From Cytophagales bacterium (GTDB lineage Bacteria; Bacteroidota; Bacteroidia; Cytophagales; UBA9547), in NCBI GenBank assembly GCA_013297755.1, contig JAAFIH010000020.1, forward strand, positions 1 to 64,000: DNA of 64,000 nt, written 5' to 3'. Each line of letters starts with the position of its first letter. Position 1 is the first letter of the stretch. Below are positions 10,120-60,673 of this stretch, piece by piece. Below the pieces are notes generated by a model. That model saw nothing but the letters and a program-made list of their open reading frames with translations. It made no database searches and was not told where the DNA came from. The position numbers and the translations under genes were made by a program.

Positions 10120-10560
10120 TATAAAAAATGATTGGTTAGAGCAGAACTTTAAAAATTATGTCAAAAAATAATTTATTTTTTTGTACTAAAACAAGATGTT
10201 GTATAATTATATAATGTAAATTTTTATTTTCTTATTATTTTTCTCCTTTTTCTAATACCCAAAAAATGCAATTTTGTTTGTCGAATTAAAGTTAATTTTT
10301 GTCGAATAATTAATGTAGATTTTATCAACATCTTTAATTTTTTTTATATTTGTGCCATAAAGTTGTTTTACTTGATGATTATTTAATATCCTTTCAAAAA
10401 ATGTAAGTATATAAATAGTGCAAATTCAATAAATTTAAAAAAATAAAAACAATTTTGTTAAAAATTTGTATTGATATAAAAAAATGGATTTTAAATGTTT
10501 TTTAACACATTGTTAAAGAATTTTTAAATGCTAAACTCTGATAAACTAATTATTACCAAC
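10120..10560. other. AT-rich intergenic region upstream of the giant adhesin
   Basis: No ORF or RNA gene seen. It separates two divergent units: the kinase cassette to the left and the adhesin to the right. It contains long A/T tracts and one good -7 box (listed separately), leaving a roughly 200-base leader before the adhesin start. Confidence 0.6.
10345..10352 (+). promoter_or_regulatory. Candidate -7 box for the adhesin
   Basis: TATATTTG matches TAnnTTTG exactly in the intergenic region 216 bp before the preferred ATG at 10561. No TTG at the usual distance upstream, so it rests on the -7 box alone. Confidence 0.35.
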
Positions 10561-13500
10561 ATGAAATATTTTACTCCTATCCTATCAAAAAATCTCTATT
10601 TTGTATCTTTTATTTTAATTTGTTTTTTTTCAAAAGCTCAAAATTGTAATAAGGTTTACACAATAAACAATCAAAATCCAACCCTACTGTCAGTTGTCAA
10701 TGATTTAACAGGAGCAACTACTGCTGTTACAACACTTGGCACCAATGCAAGAGCTTTAGCAATCAACCCCTTGAGTGGTGTTATTTTTTTTTCGAGCGAA
10801 ACAGCACCTTACAATCTTGGTACTTATAACCCTCTTACAAGCATTGTTTCGACTATAGGTGCTAGTGGTACATCTACTTTTTTTGATAAACTAACATTTT
10901 CGGCCAATGGTACTTTATATGGATTTTTGAACAATAGCAACATTTTATATACTATCAATATTACCACAGGGGCTGCTACCAATATAGCTACTTTTCCTGG
11001 TATTATTAATTCTGCATTGGATGGCGATATTGTTTTTGCTCAAGACCAAAACGATGTCATGTTTGGGGTTTTTAGGGGAATTACTCCTACACAAAGCCGT
11101 CTATATTCTATAACTGTTACAGGCACTCCTCAAGCGACTTTGCTAGGAAATGTTGCAGGAGATGTTAGAAGTCTTGGGTTTTCAGGTATTGGAAATTTAA
11201 TAGGATTCAATGCCCAACCTACTACAAATCAAATGGTGTATTTAAACCAAAACAATGGTGGTACTATAAGTTTGTATGCTATTTATAACACCCCTTCCAT
11301 TGTAGATATAGCAACTTCTCCCATAGTATTCAACCCTAATGCAGTGCAATTAACAAGTAATTTTGCTTCTTGCAATACTTCAAACACTGGAAATAGCGAT
11401 GCCCTAGTAAGAATAGCTGGTACAAACCCAAGCGATAGATATGATATCGTAACTGGTAGTTCTTACACAGGATCTGCCACATATAGCTCTGCCACAGCAC
11501 TGCCAACAAATAGAATTTTATTATCAAATTTGCCTAATGCAAATGCAACTTACACTGTAAGATTGTTCAGCAATAGTGGTTGTGTGGTAGATAAAACTAC
11601 TTCTATTGTAGCTCAAAGTTGTGTTAATAATTGCGGTAGCCCAGGCAAAGATGGACCAGCACCAAGTACAGCTCAGAGTGTAACTGGCTATAATTCAACT
11701 AGTTTGATTGTAACTGGCTCTCAAGCTACTATTACTGGATTAGGAGTACCCCCTTTGGCTGTAGGCGATAAGTTATTATTTATTCAGATGCAAGGTGCAG
11801 ATATTGTAACCACAAATGGGGTCAATTATGGCACTCCCTCAAATATTACAGCTGGCAACTATGAATTTGCTATCGTAACTTCTGTGAGTGGGACTGGTCC
11901 ATTCTCTATTGGTTTTAAAAATCCTTTACAAAACACTTATGTAAATTCAAATAATACAGGCATCAATTCGCAGGGTAATAAAAGATTTCAAATTATTCGT
12001 GTTCCACAATATTCTTCTATGACATTGCCTGTAGGGGGGTTGAATGTACCCCTTTGGAACGGAACTACTGGTGGGGTTTTGGTATTAGAAGTACAAGGAA
12101 ATATAGACTTTAATGGACAATCCATCAATGGAAGAGGGGCTGGTTTTAGAGGTGGTGGAGGTAGAGCACTTGGTGGTAATGCTGGGTTTTCTAATACTGA
12201 TTATGTAACACCAGCCACTGCTACTCTCAATGGTACCAAAGGCGAGGGCATTGCTGGCACACCACGTTATTTGAACGGCCCATCAGGCTTAATTGATACT
12301 GGAATAGAAGGTTATCCTGGAGGTAGTTATGCCCGTGGATTTGCTGCCAATGCTGGTGGTGGTGGTACAGATGGAGATGTAAATGGAAATTCCGAAAACT
12401 CTGGTGGGGGTGGTGGTGCCAACGCTGGTGCTGGTGGCCTTGGTGGTTGGGGCTGGGATGGCAGTGCAAATTTTGAACAATCTGGTGGGTTAGGTGGATT
12501 TGCTTTTGCATCCTCATCAACCAAAATTGTCATGGGTGGAGGCGGTGGTGCTGGCTCAACTAATAATTCAACTGGTATTTACAAAGGGTTTGGTGGTGGT
12601 TTTGCTTCTTCAGGTTTTTCGGGTGGTGGTATAGTTATCATTACAGCTGGTAGTGTATCAAATGTTGGTACAATTGATGTATCTGGGGCTAGTTGGGAAA
12701 CAACTTCTATTGGAGGAGATGTTTTAGTTAACAACGATGCCGCTGGTGGTGGTGGTGCAGGGGGTAGTGTGGTGCTTAATGTAGCTGCAGTTCAAGGACT
12801 TACAAATATAACTGTAAAAGCAGATGGTGGTAGAGGAGCCTCTTTATCAGCAACAATTCACGGCCCTGGTGGTGGTGGTGGAGGTGGTGCTGTGTTTGCC
12901 AATGGCACATTAAATTCAGCTTCTTCGTCAAAAAAAGGTATCAATGGACAAGCAATACCAACAGGTAATTTTGGATCATCGTCAGCCACACCTGGTGTGT
13001 CGCCAGCGGATGGGGGCACTGTGGTAGGGGCAAATTTTGGCTCAGGATTTACTTGTTTTCCACCTGTACTCAACACTGATAATGTTTCTGTTATTGTTTT
13101 AAATAGTACAACAGGCAATATTTTTTCTAATGACATCAATCCCTACACTGGCGATTTGACTGGTTTAACTTTTACTGGCATTACACCTTTTACCTCTGGT
13201 ATAGGTTCATTTGTTATCAATACATTAACAGGAGTTTATAGCTTTGTAGGAAACAATTTTCCTTCCCTTGGCCAAGGTATGGCTACCACTACCTCCATTA
13301 TATATAGTATGTGCAATATCAATGGATGTACCACAGCACAAGTAGCTTTTTCGGTTGTGGGTGTTAATGATGCTCCATTTTTATCTGCAACTCCTATCAG
13401 TATATCTGGTTTTGCAGGAGCCGTTCGTACGGGTAGTATCACTGGCTTTGGAGATATAGACAATACTTTAGCGCAACTAACCATCAGTGGTTTATCACCT

Positions 13501-15897
13501 TTAAGTACAGGTCCTAATGGAACTATCAATACTATTACAGGTGGTAGAGTTACCATAAGTGGTAGTGGATTGGTTACGTTTCAAAGTTCTGTGCCAGGTA
13601 TTTATACTTTAAATTACCAAATTTGCGACCCTACAGTAACTTGCACCAGTGCTATATTGACATTAAGTATCAATGGAGCTGTGCCAGTTCCTGCCAACGA
13701 TAATTTTACTACAAATGAAAATACAAGCATAGTAGGAAATTTACTGACCAATGATTTTAACCCTAATACAAATCAAAGTATTACTGGCTTGACATTTAAT
13801 ATTGTGCCAACACTTTTAGGAGCTAATATTGGCACATTAAGTGTCAATGGTTCTGGTGGGTTTACCTTTGTGCCTTCTGTTGAGCTTGCCCAAGGAGTTA
13901 CCACTATTACAAATTATGTTTATCAATTATGTAATAATACAGGATGTGCAACTGCTCAAGTTGTATTTTCGGTTACAGGTGTAAACGACCCACCAGTGGC
14001 ATCAACCGTGGGTATCAATGCTACAATTTTCAATTCAATTACAGGAGTTGCGAACCTAATAAGTTCTCTTACTGGTAGCGATATTGATGGTACTGTTACA
14101 GGATTTGTTATAAATTATCCATCATCTTTGGTTGGTGCTGGGGTTTTTGTAGTCAATGGAGTTACAATATCTACCAATACTACTATTGCAGGAGCTGGCC
14201 CATTGTCGGTTACTTTTGATCCAGTACGAACATTTACAGGCTTAGCCCAATTTAATTTTAATGTAAGAGATAATAATTCGGCACTTGGCATTTCCTCAGC
14301 TTTATACAGTGTATCAGTAATAGGCTCAAATCAAGCCCCTTTAGCAATTTTAAATACCACCACAACTAGCGAAGACATACCAGTGTCTGGTATCTTAGCA
14401 GGATTTAGTGATCCAGATGGCGATGCTGTGAGTGTTACAACATTTAGTGGAGCTGTTACAGGTGGAACCATTGTGATAAATGCCAATGGAAGCTATACAT
14501 TTACACCTACTTTAAATTACAATGGAGTAACTACTGTCAATTATAATGTGTGTGATAATTATGTGCCAAGTTTGTGTACTTCAAATAATTTAGTTATTAC
14601 AGTTACAAGCGTTAACGATGCTCCATTTGTTTCAAATACACCATTAACTATTGCAGGATTAGCTGGAAGCATAAGTACAAGAACTATTACAGGTTTTGGA
14701 GATGTAGATAATCCATTAAATCAATTAACTGTAAGTGGATTAAACCCAGTAAGTGTAGGAATAAATGGAACTATCAATACTATTACAGGTGGTACTGCAA
14801 CCATTAGTGGCAGTGGCTTAGTTACGTTTCAAAGTTCTGTGCCAGGGATTTATACATTAAATTACCAAATTTGCGACCCTACTGTAACTTGCACCAGTGC
14901 TATATTGACAATAAGTGTATCAGGCACACCTCCTGTTGCCATATCAAATACAACCACAACAAGCGAGGGAGTTGCAGTTTCTGGAAATGTAATGAATAAC
15001 GACCAAAACCCAAATACAGGAAACAGTACAACTGGTTTAACTGTAACTGGATTTTCTCAAATAGGTACTCCATTAGGCAACTTATCAGCTACAACTTCTG
15101 GTGGGGATTTTACATTTACTCCAAATGTAGAATTAGCACAAGGTGTAACTACAACCACTTCATTTAATTATTCTGTATGTAATGTTTCTGGTTGTTCAAC
15201 CGCAACATTAGCCATAACGATAACAGGCGTAAACGATGCCCCAGTGGGTACAGATGTGAGTACAAGTACAAGCTCAAACACAAGTATTTCAGGTACAGTA
15301 CCATTTACAGATGCAGATCCAAATAGCATAGTAACAATAACGAGCCAAAACATAACCAACCCAACAGGCACATTTACGGTAAGTACAACAGGAGGATATA
15401 GTTTTGTACCTAATGGCACATTTACAGGTATCGTTAGTTTTACAGTCAATGGATGCGATTTGTTTACTTGCACGAGTGCGATAGTTACGATAACAGTAAC
15501 TACCAATACATTATTACCAATAGCAAGATTAGACCAAAACAATGTATTAGAATCAGGCACAACTACTGGTAATATTCTTACAAATGATACCAATCCAATT
15601 ACAGGGAATAACACACAATTAACGATTACAGGCATAACAGTACAAAGTCCATTGGGAAATGTAATTATTACAAATTCCTTGACAGGTGCCTACACCTTTG
15701 TACCCAACCCAAGCGTAGAACTAGCCCAAGGGCAAACGAACACAATTAACGATTACAGGCATAACAGTACAAAGTCCATTGGGAAATGTAATTATTACAA
15801 ATTCCTTGACAGGTGCCTACACCTTTGTACCCAACCCAAGCGTAGAACTAGCCCAAGGGCAAACGACTACTACCAGTGCCATTTACAATGTATGTAA
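10561..15897 (+). CDS. Giant T9SS adhesin, N-terminal part (frame broken by a 127-bp duplication)
   Basis: The ATG at 10561 (MKYFTPILSKNLYF) starts a clear signal peptide ending in SKAQ and is preferred over the ATG 33 bp upstream. Next come a beta-propeller-like region (about residues 20-280), a module ending in SIVAQSC, a beta domain with KLLFIQMQGADI, a long glycine-rich segment (about 520-820: GGGGG runs between short hydrophobic stretches), then cadherin/Ig-like modules each closing with G-V-N-D-A-P. The last ~55 residues (from NTINDYRHNS) are out-of-frame reading of the second copy of a 127-bp duplication. Deleting one copy joins this ORF to the next and gives about 3,700 aa. Likely a cell-surface adhesin. 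Confidence 0.8.
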   Translation: MKYFTPILSKNLYFVSFILICFFSKAQNCNKVYTINNQNPTLLSVVNDLTGATTAVTTLGTNARALAINPLSGVIFFSSETAPYNLGTYNPLTSIVSTIGASGTSTFFDKLTFSANGTLYGFLNNSNILYTINITTGAATNIATFPGIINSALDGDIVFAQDQNDVMFGVFRGITPTQSRLYSITVTGTPQATLLGNVAGDVRSLGFSGIGNLIGFNAQPTTNQMVYLNQNNGGTISLYAIYNTPSIVDIATSPIVFNPNAVQLTSNFASCNTSNTGNSDALVRIAGTNPSDRYDIVTGSSYTGSATYSSATALPTNRILLSNLPNANATYTVRLFSNSGCVVDKTTSIVAQSCVNNCGSPGKDGPAPSTAQSVTGYNSTSLIVTGSQATITGLGVPPLAVGDKLLFIQMQGADIVTTNGVNYGTPSNITAGNYEFAIVTSVSGTGPFSIGFKNPLQNTYVNSNNTGINSQGNKRFQIIRVPQYSSMTLPVGGLNVPLWNGTTGGVLVLEVQGNIDFNGQSINGRGAGFRGGGGRALGGNAGFSNTDYVTPATATLNGTKGEGIAGTPRYLNGPSGLIDTGIEGYPGGSYARGFAANAGGGGTDGDVNGNSENSGGGGGANAGAGGLGGWGWDGSANFEQSGGLGGFAFASSSTKIVMGGGGGAGSTNNSTGIYKGFGGGFASSGFSGGGIVIITAGSVSNVGTIDVSGASWETTSIGGDVLVNNDAAGGGGAGGSVVLNVAAVQGLTNITVKADGGRGASLSATIHGPGGGGGGGAVFANGTLNSASSSKKGINGQAIPTGNFGSSSATPGVSPADGGTVVGANFGSGFTCFPPVLNTDNVSVIVLNSTTGNIFSNDINPYTGDLTGLTFTGITPFTSGIGSFVINTLTGVYSFVGNNFPSLGQGMATTTSIIYSMCNINGCTTAQVAFSVVGVNDAPFLSATPISISGFAGAVRTGSITGFGDIDNTLAQLTISGLSPLSTGPNGTINTITGGRVTISGSGLVTFQSSVPGIYTLNYQICDPTVTCTSAILTLSINGAVPVPANDNFTTNENTSIVGNLLTNDFNPNTNQSITGLTFNIVPTLLGANIGTLSVNGSGGFTFVPSVELAQGVTTITNYVYQLCNNTGCATAQVVFSVTGVNDPPVASTVGINATIFNSITGVANLISSLTGSDIDGTVTGFVINYPSSLVGAGVFVVNGVTISTNTTIAGAGPLSVTFDPVRTFTGLAQFNFNVRDNNSALGISSALYSVSVIGSNQAPLAILNTTTTSEDIPVSGILAGFSDPDGDAVSVTTFSGAVTGGTIVINANGSYTFTPTLNYNGVTTVNYNVCDNYVPSLCTSNNLVITVTSVNDAPFVSNTPLTIAGLAGSISTRTITGFGDVDNPLNQLTVSGLNPVSVGINGTINTITGGTATISGSGLVTFQSSVPGIYTLNYQICDPTVTCTSAILTISVSGTPPVAISNTTTTSEGVAVSGNVMNNDQNPNTGNSTTGLTVTGFSQIGTPLGNLSATTSGGDFTFTPNVELAQGVTTTTSFNYSVCNVSGCSTATLAITITGVNDAPVGTDVSTSTSSNTSISGTVPFTDADPNSIVTITSQNITNPTGTFTVSTTGGYSFVPNGTFTGIVSFTVNGCDLFTCTSAIVTITVTTNTLLPIARLDQNNVLESGTTTGNILTNDTNPITGNNTQLTITGITVQSPLGNVIITNSLTGAYTFVPNPSVELAQGQTNTINDYRHNSTKSIGKCNYYKFLDRCLHLCTQPKRRTSPRANDYYQCHLQCM

Positions 15898-17130
15898 CAT
15901 CAATGGTTGCAGCACAGCCCAAATAGCGATAACGATTACAGGCGTAAACGATGCCCCAGTGGGTACAGATGTAAGTATAAGTACCAGTTCAAATACCTCA
16001 ATCAGTGGCACAGTACCATTTACAGATGCAGATCCAAATAGCATAGTTACAGTAACGAGCCAAAACATAACCAACCCAACAGGCACATTTACAGTAAGTA
16101 CAACAGGAGGATATAGTTTTGTACCTAATGGCACATTTACAGGAATCGTTAGTTTTACAGTCAATGGATGCGATTTGTTTACTTGCACGAGTGCGATTGT
16201 TACGATAACAGTAACTACCAATACATTATTACCTTTAGCAAGATTAGACCAAAACAATGTATTAGAATCAGGCACAACGACTGGTAATATTTTGACAAAT
16301 GATACCAATCCAATAACAGGGAATAACACACAATTAACGATTACAGGCATAACAGTACAAAGTCCACTGGGAAATGTAATTATTACAAATTCCTTGACAG
16401 GTGCCTACACCTTTGTACCCAACCCAAGCGTAGAATTAGCACAAGGACAAACGACTACTACCAGTGCCATTTACAATGTATGTAACATCAATGGTTGCAG
16501 CACAGCCCAAATAGCGATAACGATTACAGGCATAAACGATGCCCCAGTGGGTACAAATGTAAACACCAATACCAGTTCAAATACAAGTATTTCAGGTACA
16601 GTACCATTTACAGATGCAGATCCAAATAGCATAGTTACAATAACGAGCCAAAACATAACCAACCCAACAGGCACATTTACAGTAAGTACAACAGGAGGAT
16701 ATAGTTTTGTACCCAATGGCACATTTACAGGGATTACAAGTTTTACAGTCAATGGATGCGATTTGTTTACTTGCACGAGTGCGATAGTAACGATAACCGT
16801 TACCACCAACACATTATTACCTTTAGCAAGATTAGACCAAAACAATGTATTAGAATCAGGCACAACGACTGGCAATATTCTTACAAATGATACCAATCCT
16901 ATAACAGGGAATAATACACAATTAACGATTACAGGCATAACAGTACAAAGTCCATTGGGAAATGTAATTATTACAAATTCCTTGACAGGTGCCTACACCT
17001 TTGTACCCAACCCAAGCGTAGAACTAGCCCAAGGGCAAACGACTACTACCAGTGCCATTTACAATGTATGTAACATCAATGGTTGCAGCACAGCCCAAAT
17101 AGCGATAACGATTACAGGCGTAAACGATGC
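15237..17130 (+). repeat. 588-bp near-identical adhesin modules
   Basis: A 196-aa module beginning at NDAPVGT and closing with CSTAQIAITITG recurs at about 15237, 15952 and 16540. The spacing between the second and third is 588 bp; between the first and second it is 715 bp, i.e. 588 plus the 127-bp duplication. The copies differ at a few bases only, pointing to recent expansion or gene conversion. Confidence 0.85.
15613..15866 (+). repeat. Exact 127-bp tandem duplication that breaks the adhesin frame
   Basis: 15613-15739 and 15740-15866 are identical, each from ACACAATTAACG to GGGCAAACGA. 127 is not a multiple of 3; removing one copy puts 10561 and 21826 in the same frame. No other module has this duplication. 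Confidence 0.95.
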
Positions 17131-20100
17131 CCCAAATTTGCCAGCAACTACAATTATTGGCTTTGAGGACATCATTCATACAGGTACAATTCTAGGTATT
17201 TCTGATGCAGATGATGATTTGATAACCGTTACAGGGGTTTCTAGCTCACCAAATGGGACATTGTCAGTGTTGTCTAATGGCTCTTACACCTTTACTGGAA
17301 TCCCTAATTTCAATGGTACAATTCCATTTACTATTACATTATGTGATCCTTATACATGTACTTCATCTATTGTAACAATCATTGTAAATCCAACCAATGA
17401 TGCTCCTGTTGCCAAAAATATAATTATTATTGCCACAGAAGATGCACCTCCAGTAACAGGCACTATTTCTGGCACATCAATTTCAAACGCCTCAAACGAT
17501 GTTTTTGATATTGACAATGCTACTTTAACTATCACTTCTATTAATGCTCAAGCAACTGGAAATGGTATAATCCAATTAAATGCTAATGGAACTTACAGTT
17601 TTACGGTTAATTCTGGTTTAACTTTACCTTTAGGACAAATTCTAACAGAAACTATACCTTATTCAGTTTGTGATTTGAATACCTGCACAAGTGCTAACTT
17701 ATTGATAACCATCGTTGGGATTAATAATGCTCCTGTGGCACTCAACAAAACTGCATCTACTGACCCAGGCGTTTTGGTTACCATTCAAGGAATTGCTACA
17801 GACTCCGACAACGATATTCTTACGTATAGTATTGTCAATGTGATTGTCAATAGCAGTGTATCAGGCACTCCAATAGCAACAATAAATAGCACAACTGGCG
17901 TTGTTAGTTATACACCAAGTACAGATTTGAGTATTCATACAGACATAGTTATATACAGAGCCTGCGACCCAAGTGGAGCTTGCAGCACTGCTCAAATGGC
18001 GATTTTTGTGCCAGCAAGTCCATTTCCACCAGTGTCTATTGGTTCAAAATCAACAATAAATGAAGATTCGCCCACAGGAGCTGTTGTTAATCTAAACAAT
18101 TTAGTAAGCGATCCAAATGGAGATGCTGTAACTATTACTGGTTTTGCCCCAATTTCTAATACACAAGGTACAGTTTCGTTGATCAATGGTGTACTTACTT
18201 TTGTGCCAGCACTAAACTTTAATGGAATTGTCGAAATAACATTTACAGGATGCGAAGTCATTAATCCTACCATAAGTTGCACAAGTAATGTAGTTACGAT
18301 TACCGTAAATGCCATCAACGATGCACCAGTATTAACCAATAAAACCAACGTAGGCAACGAAGATAGCACCATCTCTGGTAGTGTTCTCAATGTATTGAAT
18401 GATGTTGATCCAGATGGCACTACATTGTCTGTCAATACAAATCCTGTATCTGGCCCAACCAATGGAACAATCACTTTGAATACAGATGGTACATACTTAT
18501 ATATACCTAATCCTAATTTTAATGGCATAGATGTAGTTACAGTGCAAATGTGTGATAATGGCACTCCATTGCCTCCATTATGCTCAAATTTAACTTTAAC
18601 CATTACAGTAAATGGTGTAAATGATGCTCCAATAGCTCCATTGGTAACCATAGTTGGCAACGAAGATATGTTCGTTAATTACACAATTATTGGTATATCA
18701 GACCCAGATAATGGAGATGTTTTAACTGTATCTACCATAAATGGAGCAAATACAGCTAAAGGGGGCACTATCACAATAACCTCCAATGGCTTAGTTTCTT
18801 ATATTCCAGCTACAGATTTTACAGGTACAGATACCTATACGTACGAAGTTTGTGATAATGGCACTCCAAAATTATGTACTCAAAATACCATCACATTTAT
18901 AATTGCACCAGTAAATGATGCCCCAATAGCTTTGGATGATATTTATTCATTTAACCCAAATCAAACGGTGAGTGGCATTATATCAATGAAAATTAATGAT
19001 ACAGATCCAGATGGCAATACATTAACTTATTCTGTTTTGACAATCACAAGCACTGATATTGCCAATGTTGGTCTTATTACCTCATTTTACACAATAGGTA
19101 TGCTTGATTATTTTACTGGTCTAAGTGCCACTCCACGCACAGATACAATAAAATATCAAGTTTGCGATAATGGTGTGCCAAGCAAATGTGATTCTGCTAG
19201 AGTCATTATAAAAATACCTGCAACAGCTTTATCTCCTATTGTAATCAACGAAAATGTAAAAACACCTGAAGATGTAGCCCTAAATATTACCATAACTGGC
19301 AACGATTATGACCCTAATGGCGATGCCATAACGCACACTATTGCTACCTTGCCCACACATGGTACAATTACATTTAATAGCACTACTGGCGTAGCCTTGT
19401 ATACCCCAAATGCTGATTATTTTGGCACAGACAGTTTCACTTATTTAGTATGCGACCCCACCAGTTCTTGCACAAGTGGTATCGTAAATATTACCATTAC
19501 AGCCGTAAACGATGCACCAGTGGCTCTTAATAGTACAGTAAATACTAATTTTAACACTGTATTAAATGGAACTATATCTGGAATTTCTGATAAGGATAAT
19601 ACACCTAATCAACTTTCGGTAACTACTTTTGCAGGCACTATTCCTGGTGGCTCAATTACCATTAATAGAGATGGAACATATACTTTTGTGCCAAATACTA
19701 CCTTTGTAGGCACTACAAGCTACACATACCAAGTGTGCGACCCAACCATCACTTGTACCAGTGGTGTGCTTTCTATCATAGTTGCTAGTACTTCATCTCC
19801 TATTGTTATAAACGATGAGAATATAACAAACGAAAACACAAGCATTTCTGGCAATGTACTGGCCAATGATATCAACCCACTTACAGGTAATAACACTGAT
19901 TTATATGTATTTAGAATTACTTCTCCTATCAACAATGTAGGTACATTAATAGTAAATTCTTTAACAGGAGCCTACGTTTTTGTGCCAAACATAGAACTTG
20001 AGCAAGGTGTAACAACCATAACTACTTATAAATATTCGGCATGTAGAGATAATGATTGCAATTCTGCTATATTAACCATTACAATCAATGGCGTAAACGA

Positions 20101-21826
20101 TACACCAGTAGCACCAGTCATTTCTTTAAATATTCCACCTAATACCAGTACCTCTGGCACAGCCACATTCACTGACCCTGATGGAATTGTAACTGTTACA
20201 AGTCAAAATGTAACTAATCCAAATGGTACATTTACCGTAAATTCGTTGGGTGGCTACACATTTATACCCAATCCAACCTTTACAGGAATTGTTATTTATA
20301 CCATTGTAGGTTGCGATATGTTTGTGTGTACCAATGCCACAATTACAATTCATGTATTGAGTAGTACTTCTCCAATTTTATTGGCCGATGCCAACACAAC
20401 TGATGAAAACACAAGTATTTCAGGCAATATATTGAGCAATGATACTAATCCATTGACAGGCAATAGCAATGGATTAACAATCACTGGTATTATAAATATG
20501 GGCAATAATTTAGGCTCTCTCAATATAAATAGCATTTCTGGAGCTTATACTTTTGTGCCAAATGTAGAACTGCCACAAGGTATTACTACAATTACATCAT
20601 ATATATATACAGCTTGCAACACAACCAATTGCAGTACTGCACAAATAGCTATTACTATCAATGGCGTAAACGATGCACCAGTAGCTCCACAGATTGTGGT
20701 AAACATTCCTAGAAATACAAGTACCTCAGGCACAGCCACATTCACTGACCCTGACGGAATTGTAACTGTTACAAGTCAAAATGTAACTAATCCAAATGGT
20801 ACATTTACCGTAAATTCGTTGGGTGGCTACACATTTATACCCAACCCAACCTTTACAGGAATTGTTACTTATACCATTGTAGGTTGTGATATGCTCGTAT
20901 GTACAAATGCAGTTATTACAATTAATGTTACAAACTCGAGTGTAGTGGCCAACGATGATTTGCTACTAACAGATGAAAACACTGCCATAAATGGCAATAT
21001 TCTCGACAATGACTTTAACCCAGAAACCAATAGCAGTACTGCATTGACTATCTCTGGATTGACTGAACCTAACAATACTATGGGATTGCTCACTATAAAT
21101 AGCTTGACAGGTGCTTTTACATTTGTGCCAAATATAGAACTGCCACAAGGTGTAGTTACAATCACTACATATAAATACACAGCTTGCAATAGTACCAGTT
21201 GTGGAATTGCTCAAATCAATATCACTATTGTAGGAACAAACGATGCACCACAAACAACAGTAACTGGAGGTATAAATACTCAAAATCTTACAGGTACATT
21301 GCCAGGATTTATCGTTAAAGATGCAGATGGAGACGTACTTACAATAACAGCAGTATCATTAGTGCCAAATGTTGGAAATCTTACTATAAATGAACGTGGG
21401 GCTTATACCTTTGTGCCAGACCCACAATCTACTTATGTTGGTACAGTGCAGTATGCCATTACAATATGTGACCCATACACTTGCACTAGCACAATAATTG
21501 TAGTAACAATACCACCAAAAGCCACCGAAACACCACAAGGCTATGAAGTACCTAATGGATTTTCGCCCAATGGAGATGGTATAAACGATGAATTTGTAAT
21601 TTCTAAACCAATAGATAGCCCAAATGTAAACTTAAAAGTATTTAATCGTTGGGGCAATTTTGTATACGAAAACGAAAACTACGACAACACTTGGGATGGT
21701 TCGTCCAACAAAGGTATAGTGATAGGAAATGGGGGCATTGGCTTGCCAGATGGCACATACTACATCATAGTTGATTACAAAAATGACACACCCAAAACAA
21801 TAAAATATATAACCATAAGTAGGTAA
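15779..21826 (+). CDS. Giant T9SS adhesin, C-terminal part with CHU_C sorting domain
   Basis: This continues the 10561 gene after the 127-bp duplication; the apparent start at 15779 (TTG) is not a real start. It carries about fifteen further cadherin/Ig-like modules (N-D-A-P linkers, paired Cys as in CDLFTCTS and CNINGCS, F-V-P-N or Y-T-P at module ends). The final ~95 residues are the gliding-motility-associated CHU_C domain (VPNGFSPNGDGINDEF, VFNRWGNFVYEN, GLPDGTYYIIVDY), the signal for export by the type IX secretion system. The protein would be exposed on or released from the surface. As annotated, the fragment lacks a signal peptide and cannot be exported unless the frame is restored. 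Confidence 0.85.
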   Translation: MGNVIITNSLTGAYTFVPNPSVELAQGQTTTTSAIYNVCNINGCSTAQIAITITGVNDAPVGTDVSISTSSNTSISGTVPFTDADPNSIVTVTSQNITNPTGTFTVSTTGGYSFVPNGTFTGIVSFTVNGCDLFTCTSAIVTITVTTNTLLPLARLDQNNVLESGTTTGNILTNDTNPITGNNTQLTITGITVQSPLGNVIITNSLTGAYTFVPNPSVELAQGQTTTTSAIYNVCNINGCSTAQIAITITGINDAPVGTNVNTNTSSNTSISGTVPFTDADPNSIVTITSQNITNPTGTFTVSTTGGYSFVPNGTFTGITSFTVNGCDLFTCTSAIVTITVTTNTLLPLARLDQNNVLESGTTTGNILTNDTNPITGNNTQLTITGITVQSPLGNVIITNSLTGAYTFVPNPSVELAQGQTTTTSAIYNVCNINGCSTAQIAITITGVNDAPNLPATTIIGFEDIIHTGTILGISDADDDLITVTGVSSSPNGTLSVLSNGSYTFTGIPNFNGTIPFTITLCDPYTCTSSIVTIIVNPTNDAPVAKNIIIIATEDAPPVTGTISGTSISNASNDVFDIDNATLTITSINAQATGNGIIQLNANGTYSFTVNSGLTLPLGQILTETIPYSVCDLNTCTSANLLITIVGINNAPVALNKTASTDPGVLVTIQGIATDSDNDILTYSIVNVIVNSSVSGTPIATINSTTGVVSYTPSTDLSIHTDIVIYRACDPSGACSTAQMAIFVPASPFPPVSIGSKSTINEDSPTGAVVNLNNLVSDPNGDAVTITGFAPISNTQGTVSLINGVLTFVPALNFNGIVEITFTGCEVINPTISCTSNVVTITVNAINDAPVLTNKTNVGNEDSTISGSVLNVLNDVDPDGTTLSVNTNPVSGPTNGTITLNTDGTYLYIPNPNFNGIDVVTVQMCDNGTPLPPLCSNLTLTITVNGVNDAPIAPLVTIVGNEDMFVNYTIIGISDPDNGDVLTVSTINGANTAKGGTITITSNGLVSYIPATDFTGTDTYTYEVCDNGTPKLCTQNTITFIIAPVNDAPIALDDIYSFNPNQTVSGIISMKINDTDPDGNTLTYSVLTITSTDIANVGLITSFYTIGMLDYFTGLSATPRTDTIKYQVCDNGVPSKCDSARVIIKIPATALSPIVINENVKTPEDVALNITITGNDYDPNGDAITHTIATLPTHGTITFNSTTGVALYTPNADYFGTDSFTYLVCDPTSSCTSGIVNITITAVNDAPVALNSTVNTNFNTVLNGTISGISDKDNTPNQLSVTTFAGTIPGGSITINRDGTYTFVPNTTFVGTTSYTYQVCDPTITCTSGVLSIIVASTSSPIVINDENITNENTSISGNVLANDINPLTGNNTDLYVFRITSPINNVGTLIVNSLTGAYVFVPNIELEQGVTTITTYKYSACRDNDCNSAILTITINGVNDTPVAPVISLNIPPNTSTSGTATFTDPDGIVTVTSQNVTNPNGTFTVNSLGGYTFIPNPTFTGIVIYTIVGCDMFVCTNATITIHVLSSTSPILLADANTTDENTSISGNILSNDTNPLTGNSNGLTITGIINMGNNLGSLNINSISGAYTFVPNVELPQGITTITSYIYTACNTTNCSTAQIAITINGVNDAPVAPQIVVNIPRNTSTSGTATFTDPDGIVTVTSQNVTNPNGTFTVNSLGGYTFIPNPTFTGIVTYTIVGCDMLVCTNAVITINVTNSSVVANDDLLLTDENTAINGNILDNDFNPETNSSTALTISGLTEPNNTMGLLTINSLTGAFTFVPNIELPQGVVTITTYKYTACNSTSCGIAQINITIVGTNDAPQTTVTGGINTQNLTGTLPGFIVKDADGDVLTITAVSLVPNVGNLTINERGAYTFVPDPQSTYVGTVQYAITICDPYTCTSTIIVVTIPPKATETPQGYEVPNGFSPNGDGINDEFVISKPIDSPNVNLKVFNRWGNFVYENENYDNTWDGSSNKGIVIGNGGIGLPDGTYYIIVDYKNDTPKTIKYITISR

Positions 21827-22092: not shown

Positions 22093-23520
22093 TTATACAA
22101 ACAAGACACCCAACGGAATTTCATTGGTAACTACACTCAAATAATGTTCGTTTTTTTGGGCACCATTGGAGGTAAGTAAAGTAATAAATATATTTTTTTT
22201 TATTTTTGTCTTTTCTTTAAAAATAGCTATTTTTTGTTTTAGCTGCGTGGCATAATCGCTTGTGCATTCAAACAAACCATCATAAAATTTTAATTCCAAA
22301 ATATTTAAGCAATTATCGCTACGATCTACAATAAAATCAATTTGAGTGCCTTTTTCTTGCTCGTTTCCTTTCCAAAACCAAGAATATTCGTTAGAGATGA
22401 TGCCTTGAATACCTAGTGCTTTTTTGATTTGATATATGTGCTTAAAACACAGGTTCTCAAAACTAAACCCAGACCAAATCTTATAGGTTTGCGTGTTTGT
22501 GATTTGCATCCAGCTGCTATTCGTTTTATTGTTGGCAATAAATTTTAAGTAAAATATCGAATACTCGTCTACTAGCCTATACAGCACATCTTCTTTGTTT
22601 TTGTCAATGGGATAGATTATTTTTATAAATCCACAGGCAGTAAGTTCTTGCAACAGTTTACTAAATCCACCTCCTGTTAGTAGTTTAGTTTCTTTTAATA
22701 ATTGATTTCTTGTAAGTCCTTTATTTTTGGTTGCTAGTGCTTTGATAATTTTGACGTGCAAATCACTATTTTTAAACAATGAAGCATATAAATTTGAAAA
22801 TTCATTTTTGAGTAAAGCTTGTTTTTCAAAAAATAAATTATCCAATATTTGAGCCACACTTTGTCCTGGTTTTATGTCTTTCAGATAAAAAGGTACTCCA
22901 CCAACTGCCATATATAAATTTGAAATATCTTTTTCAGTTAGTTTTACATGCAATAACTTTAAATATTCTTTAGTTTCGTGTAGCGTAAAGGGCATAAGTT
23001 GAATGTGGCTTGTAACTCTATTGTGCAATCCACCTCTATTGTTGATTACTTTGTCGATAATCCAAGATGCTGCCGAGCCACAAATAACCAAAACAATATC
23101 ATCACGTTTTGAGCAATATTGGTTCCAAAAATTATCTAAAGCCGCCAAAAATCCAGATTTAGGTGTTTCAAACCAAGCAATCTCATCTAAAAAGATTACT
23201 TTTTTTTGTTTGCTTTTCATTTTATCAATAGTTGTTTTTAGCAATCGAAATGCCTGAAGCCATGTTTGCGGAAGTGGTGGTTTTTCTTCTTTGTAATTAA
23301 AAGTTTCGGTTATTGTCATCCAAAAATTTTCGAGTTGTTGGCTCATTTCTTTTTCGTGCAAACCACTACACTCAAAAGCTATAAAATCTTTGAAAACTTG
23401 CCTTATCAAATAGGTTTTGCCAATGCGCCTGCGTCCATATACGGCCAAAAACTCTGCATTTTTATTATCAATAAGGTTTTGCATCATTCTGATTTCGTAC
23501 TCCCTACCAGCAACTTTCAT
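22093..23520 (-). CDS. AAA ATPase with winged helix and DUF234/PD-(D/E)XK-like C terminus (copy A)
   Basis: 475 aa. Walker A at 29-36 (GRRRIGKT), Walker B at 108-113 (VIFLDE), a sensor segment CGSAASWI at 147-154. A winged-helix region follows around 265-315 (GLTRNQLLKETKLLTGGGFS). The C terminus has GTQIDFIVDR and, after a short strand, ILELKFYDG: a D-x(n)-E-x-K arrangement typical of PD-(D/E)XK nuclease folds, to which DUF234 has been assigned. It belongs to the archaeal-type ATPase family common in archaea and Bacteroidota, whose cellular role is poorly defined. It is paralogous to the 58805-60226 gene over its whole length. Its promoter lies inside a palindromic repeat array that probably serves as its own binding site. 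Confidence 0.85.
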   Translation of the reverse strand: MKVAGREYEIRMMQNLIDNKNAEFLAVYGRRRIGKTYLIRQVFKDFIAFECSGLHEKEMSQQLENFWMTITETFNYKEEKPPLPQTWLQAFRLLKTTIDKMKSKQKKVIFLDEIAWFETPKSGFLAALDNFWNQYCSKRDDIVLVICGSAASWIIDKVINNRGGLHNRVTSHIQLMPFTLHETKEYLKLLHVKLTEKDISNLYMAVGGVPFYLKDIKPGQSVAQILDNLFFEKQALLKNEFSNLYASLFKNSDLHVKIIKALATKNKGLTRNQLLKETKLLTGGGFSKLLQELTACGFIKIIYPIDKNKEDVLYRLVDEYSIFYLKFIANNKTNSSWMQITNTQTYKIWSGFSFENLCFKHIYQIKKALGIQGIISNEYSWFWKGNEQEKGTQIDFIVDRSDNCLNILELKFYDGLFECTSDYATQLKQKIAIFKEKTKIKKNIFITLLTSNGAQKNEHYLSVVTNEIPLGVLFV

Positions 23521-23536
23521 GTTTTTCTATCAATTT

Positions 23537-24250
23537 ATTATTCGCCAAATATAGCATAAAATCATATAACTTGGCGAATTATAATTTTATTATTCGCCAA
23601 ATATACCATAAAATCATATAACTTGGCGAATTATATTTTATATAAAGTATTGATTATCAGGCATTTATATAAATTTATATTGCCTATATTTCAATATTTT
23701 TATAAAAATATTATGTATTTCTATAATTGATATTTAATTTTATTATTCGCCAAATAAGCCACAAAATCATACAACTTGGCGAATTATAATTTATTTAATA
23801 TGCTGATTATCAGTCATTTATACAAATTAATATCTTCTAAATTTTATTGTATTTTATCCTTATTTATTTCAATAATTGCTATTTAATACTATTATTCGCC
23901 AAATAAGCCACAAAATCATATAACTTGGCGAATTATAATTTATTTAATATACTGATTATCAGGCATTTATATAAATTAATATCCGCTATATTAAAATACA
24001 TTTTATAGAAATATTATGTATTTCAATAATTGCTATTTAATACTATTATTCGCCAAATATAGCATAAAATCATATAACTTGGCGAACTATAATTTATTTA
24101 ACATACTGATTATCAGGTGTTTATATAAATTAATGTCTTCTAAACTTTATTGTATTTTATCCTTATTTATTTCAATAATTGCTATTTAATACTATTATTC
24201 GCCAAATAAGCCACAAAATCATATAACTTGGCGAATTATAATTTATTTAG
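23537..24250 (+). repeat. Array of six palindromic repeats upstream of ATPase copy A
   Basis: Six copies of a ~40-bp dyad, TTCGCCAA - 22 bases - TTGGCGAA, begin at 23541, 23593, 23756, 23895, 24049 and 24198. Flanking A/T bases extend the arms to about 12. The intervening 100-125 bp usually begin with GATTATCAG and are of two alternating types (2-3 like 4-5; 3-4 like 5-6), giving a higher-order period near 300 bp. The spacers resemble each other and are too long for CRISPR. The first copy is 21 bp from the ATPase start. Confidence 0.9.
23546..23553 (-). promoter_or_regulatory. -7 box of ATPase A, inside the first repeat
   Basis: On the minus strand TATATTTG, 26 bp upstream of the ATG and overlapping the repeat arm (TTTGGCGAA). 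Copies 2 and 5 of the repeat also contain TATATTTG; copies 3, 4 and 6 have TTATTTG. A protein bound to the arm would cover the promoter. Confidence 0.5.
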
Positions 24251-58804: not shown

Positions 58805-60226
58805 TTAGCAAAAGAAATCCTCTAATAGCACCACTTTATCTATTGTACTATAATAAAAATCGTTTTTCTTGATAGGTAAATTACATACTAGGGTTGTAAA
58901 TATATTCTTTTTTGTACCAGTGAATTGTTTGAGCAATTCCTTTCTTTTGTTGAGAACAGCCGAATATGGTTTGGTTATTTCAAAAGGTTCAGTGTAGTAT
59001 TTACACTCACATATATTTATAGTGTTGTCGGCTCTATCTAGTAGAATATCTATTTGTATGCCCTCGTTGGTATTGTCGGCTATTTTATAAAAACTAGATA
59101 CCTCAGTATATACATTTGCTATGCCCAAGGCTCTTTTTATTTGTGTCAAATGTCGCATACAGAGAGCCTCAAAGGCATATCCTAGCCAAATTTTGTAAGA
59201 TTGTGTTTTGGCTATTTCTTGCCAAACACCTGCACCTGCTTTTTTGTGTGAGGCTATAAAGCGATGATAAAATACCGAAAATTCATCAATCAATCTGTAT
59301 ATTGTACCTTGTTTTATTTTGCCAAAAGGTTGCTGAACTGTTACAAAACCAGATAATACCAAATCCTCCATAGCTCGAGTAAAAGGGCCGCCCATAGCCA
59401 CTTTAGATTTTTGGCTCAGTTCGGCTCTGGTCAAACCAGATCTTGATTTGGCCAATACCCCCACAATGGCTTCGTGGTTGGCTGATTGGTCAAACAATGC
59501 CTTATATAGTTGGTTGTATTCGGTTTTCAGAAATCCACCTTCGGCAAAGCAGAGCCTGTCTATGGCTTCTGTCGCTGATTCACCTTTACGAATCAATTCT
59601 AAATAATAGGGGATACCTCCCAGGGCCATGTATAATTGTGCGACATCAGAGTCGGCCAATTTTATTTTATTACTTAATAAGAAATCTTTAGTTTCGGCTA
59701 GTGTAAATGGGGGTAGCTGTATATGATGTGTGATTCGATTGTGGAAACCGCCTGTATCATTAACTATTTTTTTGTTAATCCAAGAAGTTGCCGATCCGCA
59801 TATAGCTAATATAAAATGTTTTTCTTTGGATAAATAATCGTTCCATAGATGAGCAAGTAATTGAATAAAACCTGAGCGAGGGGTTGCTATCCATGGTAAT
59901 TCATCTATAAAAATAACTTGTTTTTTATTTTTAGGTAAGCTATCCAAATATTTCTTGAATAGGATAAACACTTGTTGCCAGTTTTTAGGCATAGTTACTA
60001 TGGGTATGTTGCTATATTCGGCCATTTTTTGTACAAAGTTTGCAATCTGTGCACTTTGGCTTGCATCTTGTATACCTGTAACCCTAAAGCATCTATTATT
60101 TTGATATACCTGATCTATCAAATAGGTTTTGCCTACTCGCCTCCGACCTGTTACTGCCACGAAATAAGACTTTTTCAAGGCCAGAAGTTCGGTCATTGCT
60201 TCTATTTGTTGTTTACGGCCTACCAT
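58805..60226 (-). CDS. AAA ATPase with winged helix and DUF234/PD-(D/E)XK-like C terminus (copy B)
   Basis: 473 aa, paralogue of the 22093 gene over its full length. Walker A GRRRVGKT (27-34), Walker B VIFIDE, sensor CGSATSWI, then the strongly shared GGFHNRITHHIQLPPFTL. Winged helix around RSGLTRAELSQKSKVAMG. C-terminal nuclease-like motif GIQIDILLDR with ICECKYY (D..E-x-K). As with copy A, an array of palindromic repeats sits directly upstream, but of unrelated sequence. Likely DNA-binding, possibly autoregulatory; real role unknown. Confidence 0.85.
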   Translation of the reverse strand: MVGRKQQIEAMTELLALKKSYFVAVTGRRRVGKTYLIDQVYQNNRCFRVTGIQDASQSAQIANFVQKMAEYSNIPIVTMPKNWQQVFILFKKYLDSLPKNKKQVIFIDELPWIATPRSGFIQLLAHLWNDYLSKEKHFILAICGSATSWINKKIVNDTGGFHNRITHHIQLPPFTLAETKDFLLSNKIKLADSDVAQLYMALGGIPYYLELIRKGESATEAIDRLCFAEGGFLKTEYNQLYKALFDQSANHEAIVGVLAKSRSGLTRAELSQKSKVAMGGPFTRAMEDLVLSGFVTVQQPFGKIKQGTIYRLIDEFSVFYHRFIASHKKAGAGVWQEIAKTQSYKIWLGYAFEALCMRHLTQIKRALGIANVYTEVSSFYKIADNTNEGIQIDILLDRADNTINICECKYYTEPFEITKPYSAVLNKRKELLKQFTGTKKNIFTTLVCNLPIKKNDFYYSTIDKVVLLEDFFC

Positions 60227-60245
60227 ATTTTTTTGCTCTATATTG

Positions 60246-60253
60246 CAAATATA
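60246..60253 (-). promoter_or_regulatory. -7 box of ATPase B, abutting its repeat array
   Basis: Minus-strand TATATTTG, exact consensus, 20 bp before the ATG. The first repeat starts at the next base (60254), so the array occupies the -33 region and beyond. Confidence 0.5.
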
Positions 60254-60500
60254 ATAGAAAAGTACAGATATAAAATATTCAACTTGTATTTTTCTATATT
60301 ATTTTTGATAGAAAAGTACAGATATAAAATATTCAACTTGTATTTTTCTATACTTTTTTTGATAGAAAAGTACAGATATAAAATATTCAACTTGTATTTT
60401 TCTATACTTTTTTTGATAGAAAAGTACAGATATAAAATATTCAACTTGTATTTTTCTATACTTTTTTTGACAGAAAAGTACAGATATAAAATTACGATGA
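60254..60500 (+). repeat. 54-bp tandem repeat array upstream of ATPase copy B
   Basis: Units start at 60254, 60308, 60362, 60416 and 60470 (last one partial): exactly 54 bp each, nearly identical. Each contains a dyad with arms TAGAAAAGTACA and TTGTATTTTTCTA around TATAAAATATTCAAC, then a spacer TACTTTTTTTGA. Because 54 is divisible by three, open frames appear on both strands; I do not consider these genes. Confidence 0.92.
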
Positions 60501-60673
60501 TGCAACCTTATATTATATTATAGTTTTGAAAATTTAAAACATCAGAAATAGTCAAAAATAAACTATTATAAAGATTCCTTGATTTTTTGTTACTTTAAAC
60601 GCCATTTATATAATTTTATTTAAAAATTATTTTTCATTATTAATTTTGTTTTTTGATTAAAATTGGAAATAAA

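Follow-up and report, generated by a model that had tools for sequence, protein, structure and literature searches.

Organization of the ATPase B and ATPase A loci

The window, by which we mean the whole 64,000-nucleotide stretch of Cytophagales DNA analysed here, carries two related ATPase genes, A and B, both on the minus strand and both preceded by inverted repeats (dyads) at their own promoter. The features at B are as follows.

58805 to 60226, minus strand: ATPase B, with ATPase_2, winged helix and PD-(D/E)xK nuclease-like domain (DUF234); PADLOC PDC-S27
60246 to 60253, minus strand: B promoter -7 box TATATTTG, read from the sequence
60254 to 60492, minus strand: array of B dyads, 54-bp period, 4.4 copies (Tandem Repeats Finder)
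60254 to 60297, unstranded: B dyad 1, promoter-proximal, containing a damaged -7 box TATATCTG
60308 to 60351, unstranded: B dyad 2
60362 to 60405, unstranded: B dyad 3
60416 to 60459, unstranded: B dyad 4
60469 to 60483 (near 60470), unstranded: B half-site closing the array

An earlier note on this DNA had claimed a 54-bp array beside the -7 box of ATPase B, and this array is real, with a period of 54, 4.4 copies and a 98% match in Tandem Repeats Finder; it contains a single half-site in addition to four complete 44-bp dyads. The dyad, read on the minus strand, is ATAGAAAAATACAagttgaatattttatatcTGTACTTTTCTAT, with 12 of 13 arm pairs matched, and the array directly adjoins the -7 box, which is of the Bacteroidota -7 type, TAnnTTTG. 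The ATG start codon at 60226 (60226-60224) is 27 bp from the start of the array. A sigma-70 and terminator scan gave no signal exceeding that of shuffles and no terminator-like site at B, and the genes beside B do not resemble known defence genes. At ATPase A we found the following features.

22093 to 23520, minus strand: ATPase A, paralogue of B, PDC-S27
23546 to 23553, minus strand: A promoter -7 box TATATTTG, within the right arm of A dyad 1
23540 to 23579, unstranded: A dyad 1, promoter-proximal
23592 to 23631, unstranded: A dyad 2, 52 bp from dyad 1
23745 to 23784, unstranded: A dyad 3
23894 to 23933, unstranded: A dyad 4
24048 to 24087, unstranded: A dyad 5, one base changed
24197 to 24236, unstranded: A dyad 6

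A and B are indeed paralogues, as had been claimed, sharing 41% identity over their full length (E 2e-140). The six A dyads follow the pattern ATTCGCCAA-N22-TTGGCGAA[T/C]; two are 52 bp apart and the rest are spaced at 149-154 bp. As such, the proposed common geometry of the two loci holds for the placement of dyads at each gene's own promoter but not for the details, as A has no plain 54-bp array and its -7 box lies inside a dyad arm. Similarly, the two arrays had been called unrelated, and their letters do differ, but one family half-site layout is common to both. Exact B dyads occur four times in the 4.24-Mb assembly, all inside B's own array, and exact A dyads five times, all inside A's own array; because each dyad is found in its own array only, chance can be excluded, in line with the earlier view that this is not a chance tandem repeat. 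A second perfect palindrome-like motif, CTGATTATCAG, is present at 23803, 23952, 24106 and 24255, where it alternates with the A dyads at a period of 149-154 bp.

The same genome holds a distant third PDC-S27-like relative (L003, G000:C44:2544-3785; 24% identity), with a different dyad, TAGTATAAAA/TTTTATACTA, upstream near its start codon. The orthologue of B in genome G006 (80% identity) has its own 54-bp array, in which the left arm ATAGAAAAATACAAGTTGAAT is as in B and the spacer letters differ, the orthologue of A in G005 (67% identity) has two dyads carrying A's arms, and the B-type core recurs in a Saprospiraceae MAG, at the gene for a 54%-identical relative of B. The arrays thus turn over internally with the arms retained. 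The earlier note had named the loss of the array in close strains, with the ATPase still expressed, as a second adverse outcome; at the level of sequence, the orthologues of A and B both retain an array with matching arms. Identical core half-sites were seen in 1 of 99 pairs of same-genome paralogues; the rate was 4.8% for pairs between genomes in the same identity range. Such low sharing among paralogues of one genome is only suggestive of insulation.

Domain architecture and family membership

Pfam assigned ATPase_2 (PF01637) to both A and B (68 bits against a cut-off of 33.2), and the Walker A and Walker B residues are invariant (G27, R28-R30, G32, K33, T34; D108, E109). DUF234 (PF03008, cut-off 22.5 bits) scored 25.0 bits in B and 14.7 in A. 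Both proteins matched the PADLOC candidate PDC-S27 over their full length through PDLC04984/PDLC04985 (B, E 8e-177 over residues 1-472; A, E 1e-185), and PDLC04984 was matched by all 37 aligned members, with a best E of 1e-207. The fold of residues 1-323 is most similar to the archaeal ATPases PABY2304 (2QEN) and SSO1545 (2FNA), with which the ATPase and winged helix align over about 300 residues (Z 20), followed by STAND proteins of the CED-4/NLR type and ORC/Cdc6. 2FNA and 2QEN align only to this range, beyond which lies the C-terminal nuclease-like domain of PDC-S27. To our knowledge, no cognate DNA site is known for SSO1545 or PABY2304. Taken alone (pLDDT 93.8), the C-terminal domain gave best Foldseek matches that were mostly PD-(D/E)xK nucleases, with E 3e-4 and weaker, and residues E353, D393 and E407-x-K409, invariant in 37 sequences, conform to the PD-(D/E)xK catalytic pattern. 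A sequence search of the PDB returned weak TnsC matches only, and a PHROGs search gave for A only a weak clamp-loader match.

PDC-S27 is a single-gene phage-defence candidate of PADLOC in which, according to its published description, an ATPase and a PD-(D/E)xK domain are fused; it is abundant in archaea, and its genes number thousands in bacteria and archaea (PMC12988326); most PDCs are without experimental validation (PMC12988326). A and B share this ATPase and PD-(D/E)xK composition, whereas the winged helix and the operator are absent from the main text of that paper, where the words "winged", "operator" and "inverted repeat" do not occur (PMC12988326). In the open-access literature searched, the coverage of which is incomplete, we found no earlier report of PDC-S27 cognate sites.

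A family-wide dyad in phase with the promoter

Homologues are patchily distributed, being present in 10 of 241 genomes of the order, in 48 of 395 in a draw from the class and in 21 of 395 in a draw from the phylum, with up to 11 per genome. Among 110 homologues with usable upstream DNA, 91.8% have a strong dyad upstream, defined as an inverted repeat with a score of at least 9 lying at most 160 bp upstream of the start codon; the corresponding rates were 11.8% in shuffles, 7.6% in far-upstream and 5.9% in downstream controls. In 57 cases the distance of a TAnnTTTG box from the dyad centre is +6.0 or +6.5 bp, a fixed phase between a dyad and its own promoter as looked for in an autoregulated operator, and -7 boxes of a second group are found near -4.5, roughly a helical turn off. 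At 33-36% identity the placement of the dyad is more variable.

Many family genes have one dyad only. Where neighbouring copies are less than 80 bp apart, 60 of 65 spacings fall at 50-56 bp, and the 54-bp spacing first seen at B is therefore a property of the family. The half-site consensus, from inside to outside, is roughly A7 n w9 T10 T11 T12 [G/A/C]13 G14 C15 n16 a17 n n TATAA. As the half-sites lie about 13 bp to each side of the centre, the arrays amount to alternating chains of half-sites every ~26.5 bp. Position 16 carries 0.09 bit, yet is paired between the arms in 89% of dyads, and position 13 is paired in 97%.

B is an outlier of the family, with Met at residue 278 and half-sites placed about 3 bp nearer the dyad centre. 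Together with L004 and L010 it makes up a small subgroup that has the half-site core TTGTA at this closer position. Its embedded -7 box is damaged, and an intact one is found immediately outside the dyad instead. B fits the family plan, yet is no textbook example of the residue 278 rule described below.

A residue-base code between winged helix and half-site

The earlier note had proposed that protein and array co-diverge as cognate pairs, and had asked whether array sequence covaries with winged-helix type, the lack of any correlation being the outcome that would speak against such pairing. A correlation was found, so this objection falls away: among about 8,000 pairs of protein residue and DNA base, the top MI score across 102 proteins (z 15.3) belonged to the pairing of residue 278 and half-site base 13. 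Base 12 paired with 278 came next, and the pairs of residues 284 and 281 with base 16 were within the top five. In 92 of 97 cases residue 278 agrees with base 13 (S/T with G in 59, N with A in 18, D/E with C in 15) and five disagree. At base 16, R284 is mostly found with C (opposite strand G), K with either T or G, and L with G. In the AlphaFold model (mean pLDDT 91.9), the predicted recognition helix of the winged helix (280-291) is N-capped by residue 278 and carries 281 and 284 on its exposed turns.

The code also predicted members that had been held out. With all relatives of more than 60% identity removed, base 13 was predicted by residue 278 at 95%, compared with 74% for the next-best column, 63% for the majority base and 62% for the nearest relative. 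Base 16 was predicted by residue 284, the best column of the protein, at 63% and by the second-best, 281, at 53%, compared with 32% for the nearest relative. Outside the training set the 278 rule was right in eight of the nine members that could be scored (L033, L135, L136, L144 and L155-L158 fit, L143 breaks it), and R284 members had C16 in all four cases. The dyad register was picked with the aid of a family profile, and nine members of doubtful register were excluded from the covariation set. For B, L010 and L004 (the G006 orthologue) the automatic procedure chose the register between dyads; B and L010 were reset by hand, and L004 counts as noise because it was left in that register.

Shared ancestry does not account readily for this agreement. 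With the winged-helix columns left out of tree building, at least 19 residue-class changes at 278 and 21 base changes at 13 were counted, and tree simulations, with 2,000 runs for each of three rates, reached a concordance of at most 70 of 97, where 92 was observed. Independent-pair contrasts on supported branches gave six same to zero opposite for N/A and four to zero for DE/C, although with so few independent pairs the sign tests are weak alone (median p 0.03 and 0.125, respectively). A partial Mantel test that compared sliding protein windows with operator distance was equivocal, in that 273-286 ranked high and Walker A and others higher; because conserved windows outranked the winged helix in this test, we based our conclusions on MI by column and on leave-out prediction. 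Taken together, the pairing first suggested by A and B is supported, and sharpened into a readable recognition code.

Discussion

The dyads, their spacing and fixed promoter phase, the residue-base code and the confinement of the A and B dyads to their own genes come directly from our computational analysis. We consider it likely that each PDC-S27 gene carries its own operator, read by its own winged helix and most likely autorepressing; as judged from sequence, this self-targeting operator probably silences a nuclease that must stay quiet. The operator would be a dyad of two ~15-bp half-sites about 27 bp apart, lying over the promoter and often repeated every ~53 bp, which is about five helical turns. 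Its half-sites would be read by the winged helix of the gene's own protein, via residues 278, 281 and 284, and a dimer, or on an array a phased row of dimers every ~53 bp, would cover the -7 region and repress the gene. Such repression could hold a potentially harmful ATPase-nuclease low until a signal alters its state, and the state of the ATPase may set both release from the DNA and nuclease action. The residue-base covariation may be taken as indirect evidence that each protein binds at its own gene; assembly into dimers or filaments, repression, control of the nuclease and a role in phage defence are further steps that we infer. Since paralogues in the same genome have drifted to different letters, each should control only itself.

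Dyads lying over their own promoter, specificity set by a recognition helix and the divergence of paralogues to separate operators are well known from restriction-modification controller proteins, toxin-antitoxin operators, LacI and TetR. In PDC-S27, by contrast, the DNA reader would be a large ATPase-nuclease, and its operators are often repeated at ~53 bp. A self-operator as such is a known kind of arrangement. Tentatively, and with a good deal less confidence than for the self-operator as such, we speculate that the ATPase might line up in phase along its own array, the DNA-bound state both repressing the gene and keeping the nuclease inactive, and that a changed state of the DNA or array, for example through phage takeover or loss of the locus, might release it. 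The paralogues might then be separately addressed self-monitoring cassettes for defence or addiction, able to travel with their dyads.

A different explanation, which we regard as unlikely, is that of a mobile or selfish cassette, in which the dyads would be the ends or landing site of a one-gene element, the ATPase-nuclease would move, copy or homogenise the cassette, and the overlap with the promoter would be secondary. This reading draws on a cognate dyad that is also present just downstream of the stop codon in 31 of 99 genes (about 31%), compared with 6.9% in a non-cognate control. These downstream dyads are mostly centred 18-60 bp past the stop codon, and some overlap it. L112, L012, L013, L093, L113 and others have dyads on both sides of the gene, with the downstream dyad of L112 equal to its upstream dyad, spacer included; with cognate dyads on both sides, some genes therefore form a minimal dyad-gene-dyad cassette. 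The patchy distribution of the family, its occurrence on plasmids and in Wolbachia phage WO, and the different genomic contexts of B and its orthologue would likewise suit a mobile element. In WO, a family gene lies between head genes, behind two dyads, and WO phages without the ATPase gene (L159, L160, L161, L163 and L162) keep a related dyad in the gap after the minor capsid gene, where L162 has further dyad copies and a transposase gene. Gene loss, trans regulation and insertion at an existing dyad are each possible accounts of a WO dyad without its gene. The WO dyad pattern had zero matches in a viral-contig scan.

However, about two thirds of the genes, A and B included, are without a downstream dyad, the A and B dyads are not dispersed in their genome, and element ends do not require a fixed phase with the -7 box. 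Neither a target duplication nor a clean empty site was found; two family genomes do contain relatives of the gene next to B (at 60653), but in other contexts. A parallel is offered by the RAYT/REP systems, in which a gene is also tied to its own palindromes and these differ between family members (PMC2817692, PMC3686654). Unlike RAYT, a Y1/HUH tyrosine transposase, PDC-S27 has ATPase_2 and PD-(D/E)xK domains, and unlike REPs, which are dispersed and usually number more than 100 copies per genome (PMC2817692, PMC3686654), the exact dyads (four of B, five of A) are each confined to their own array. The self-operator remains our preferred reading, although simple promoter repression does not need the downstream dyads, and the dyads kept in gene-less WO phages also count against it; looping between upstream and downstream dyads would be a further option.

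It is improbable, in our judgement, that the arrays are origin-like or centromere-like, with an ORC/Cdc6-like ATPase acting on phased repeats in the replication or partition of a present or former replicon. The N-terminal part (residues 1-323) does resemble ORC/Cdc6-type initiators in fold, a winged helix is present and phased repeats adjoin the gene, but these are single chromosomal genes, up to 11 per genome and many with one dyad, and an invariant nuclease-like active site is atypical for initiators or partition proteins. Even less credible is an RNA element, with the dyads acting as transcript hairpins in an attenuator or terminator: the inverted repeats are perfect and some lie past the stop codon, but with the -7 box placed in either the loop or the right arm, the upstream dyad mostly precedes the transcription start, the letters track the recognition helix, and B has no terminator-like site. 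Finally, a neutral tandem repeat standing in front of the gene by chance can practically be dismissed, for although slippage or conversion would be expected to give the near-identical units of each array, such a repeat is contradicted by the family-wide presence, phase, spacing and residue-base code.

For a self-operator, the residue-to-base code would provide a direct handle on PDC-S27, as the site becomes predictable from the protein. Short DNA suffices for tests of binding and repression, specificity could be rewired between paralogues, and the roughly one hundred matched protein/DNA pairs form a natural set for studying the evolution of recognition without crosstalk.

Other repeats in the window

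Two further repeats lie elsewhere in the window. A perfect 127-bp tandem duplication at 15613-15866, close to where an ORF of 1789 aa (10528-15897) has its 3' end, overlaps the start of the next listed ORF, of 2015 aa (15779-21826), and a perfect 46-bp tandem repeat of two copies, which includes G+C-rich stretches, is present at 81-171.
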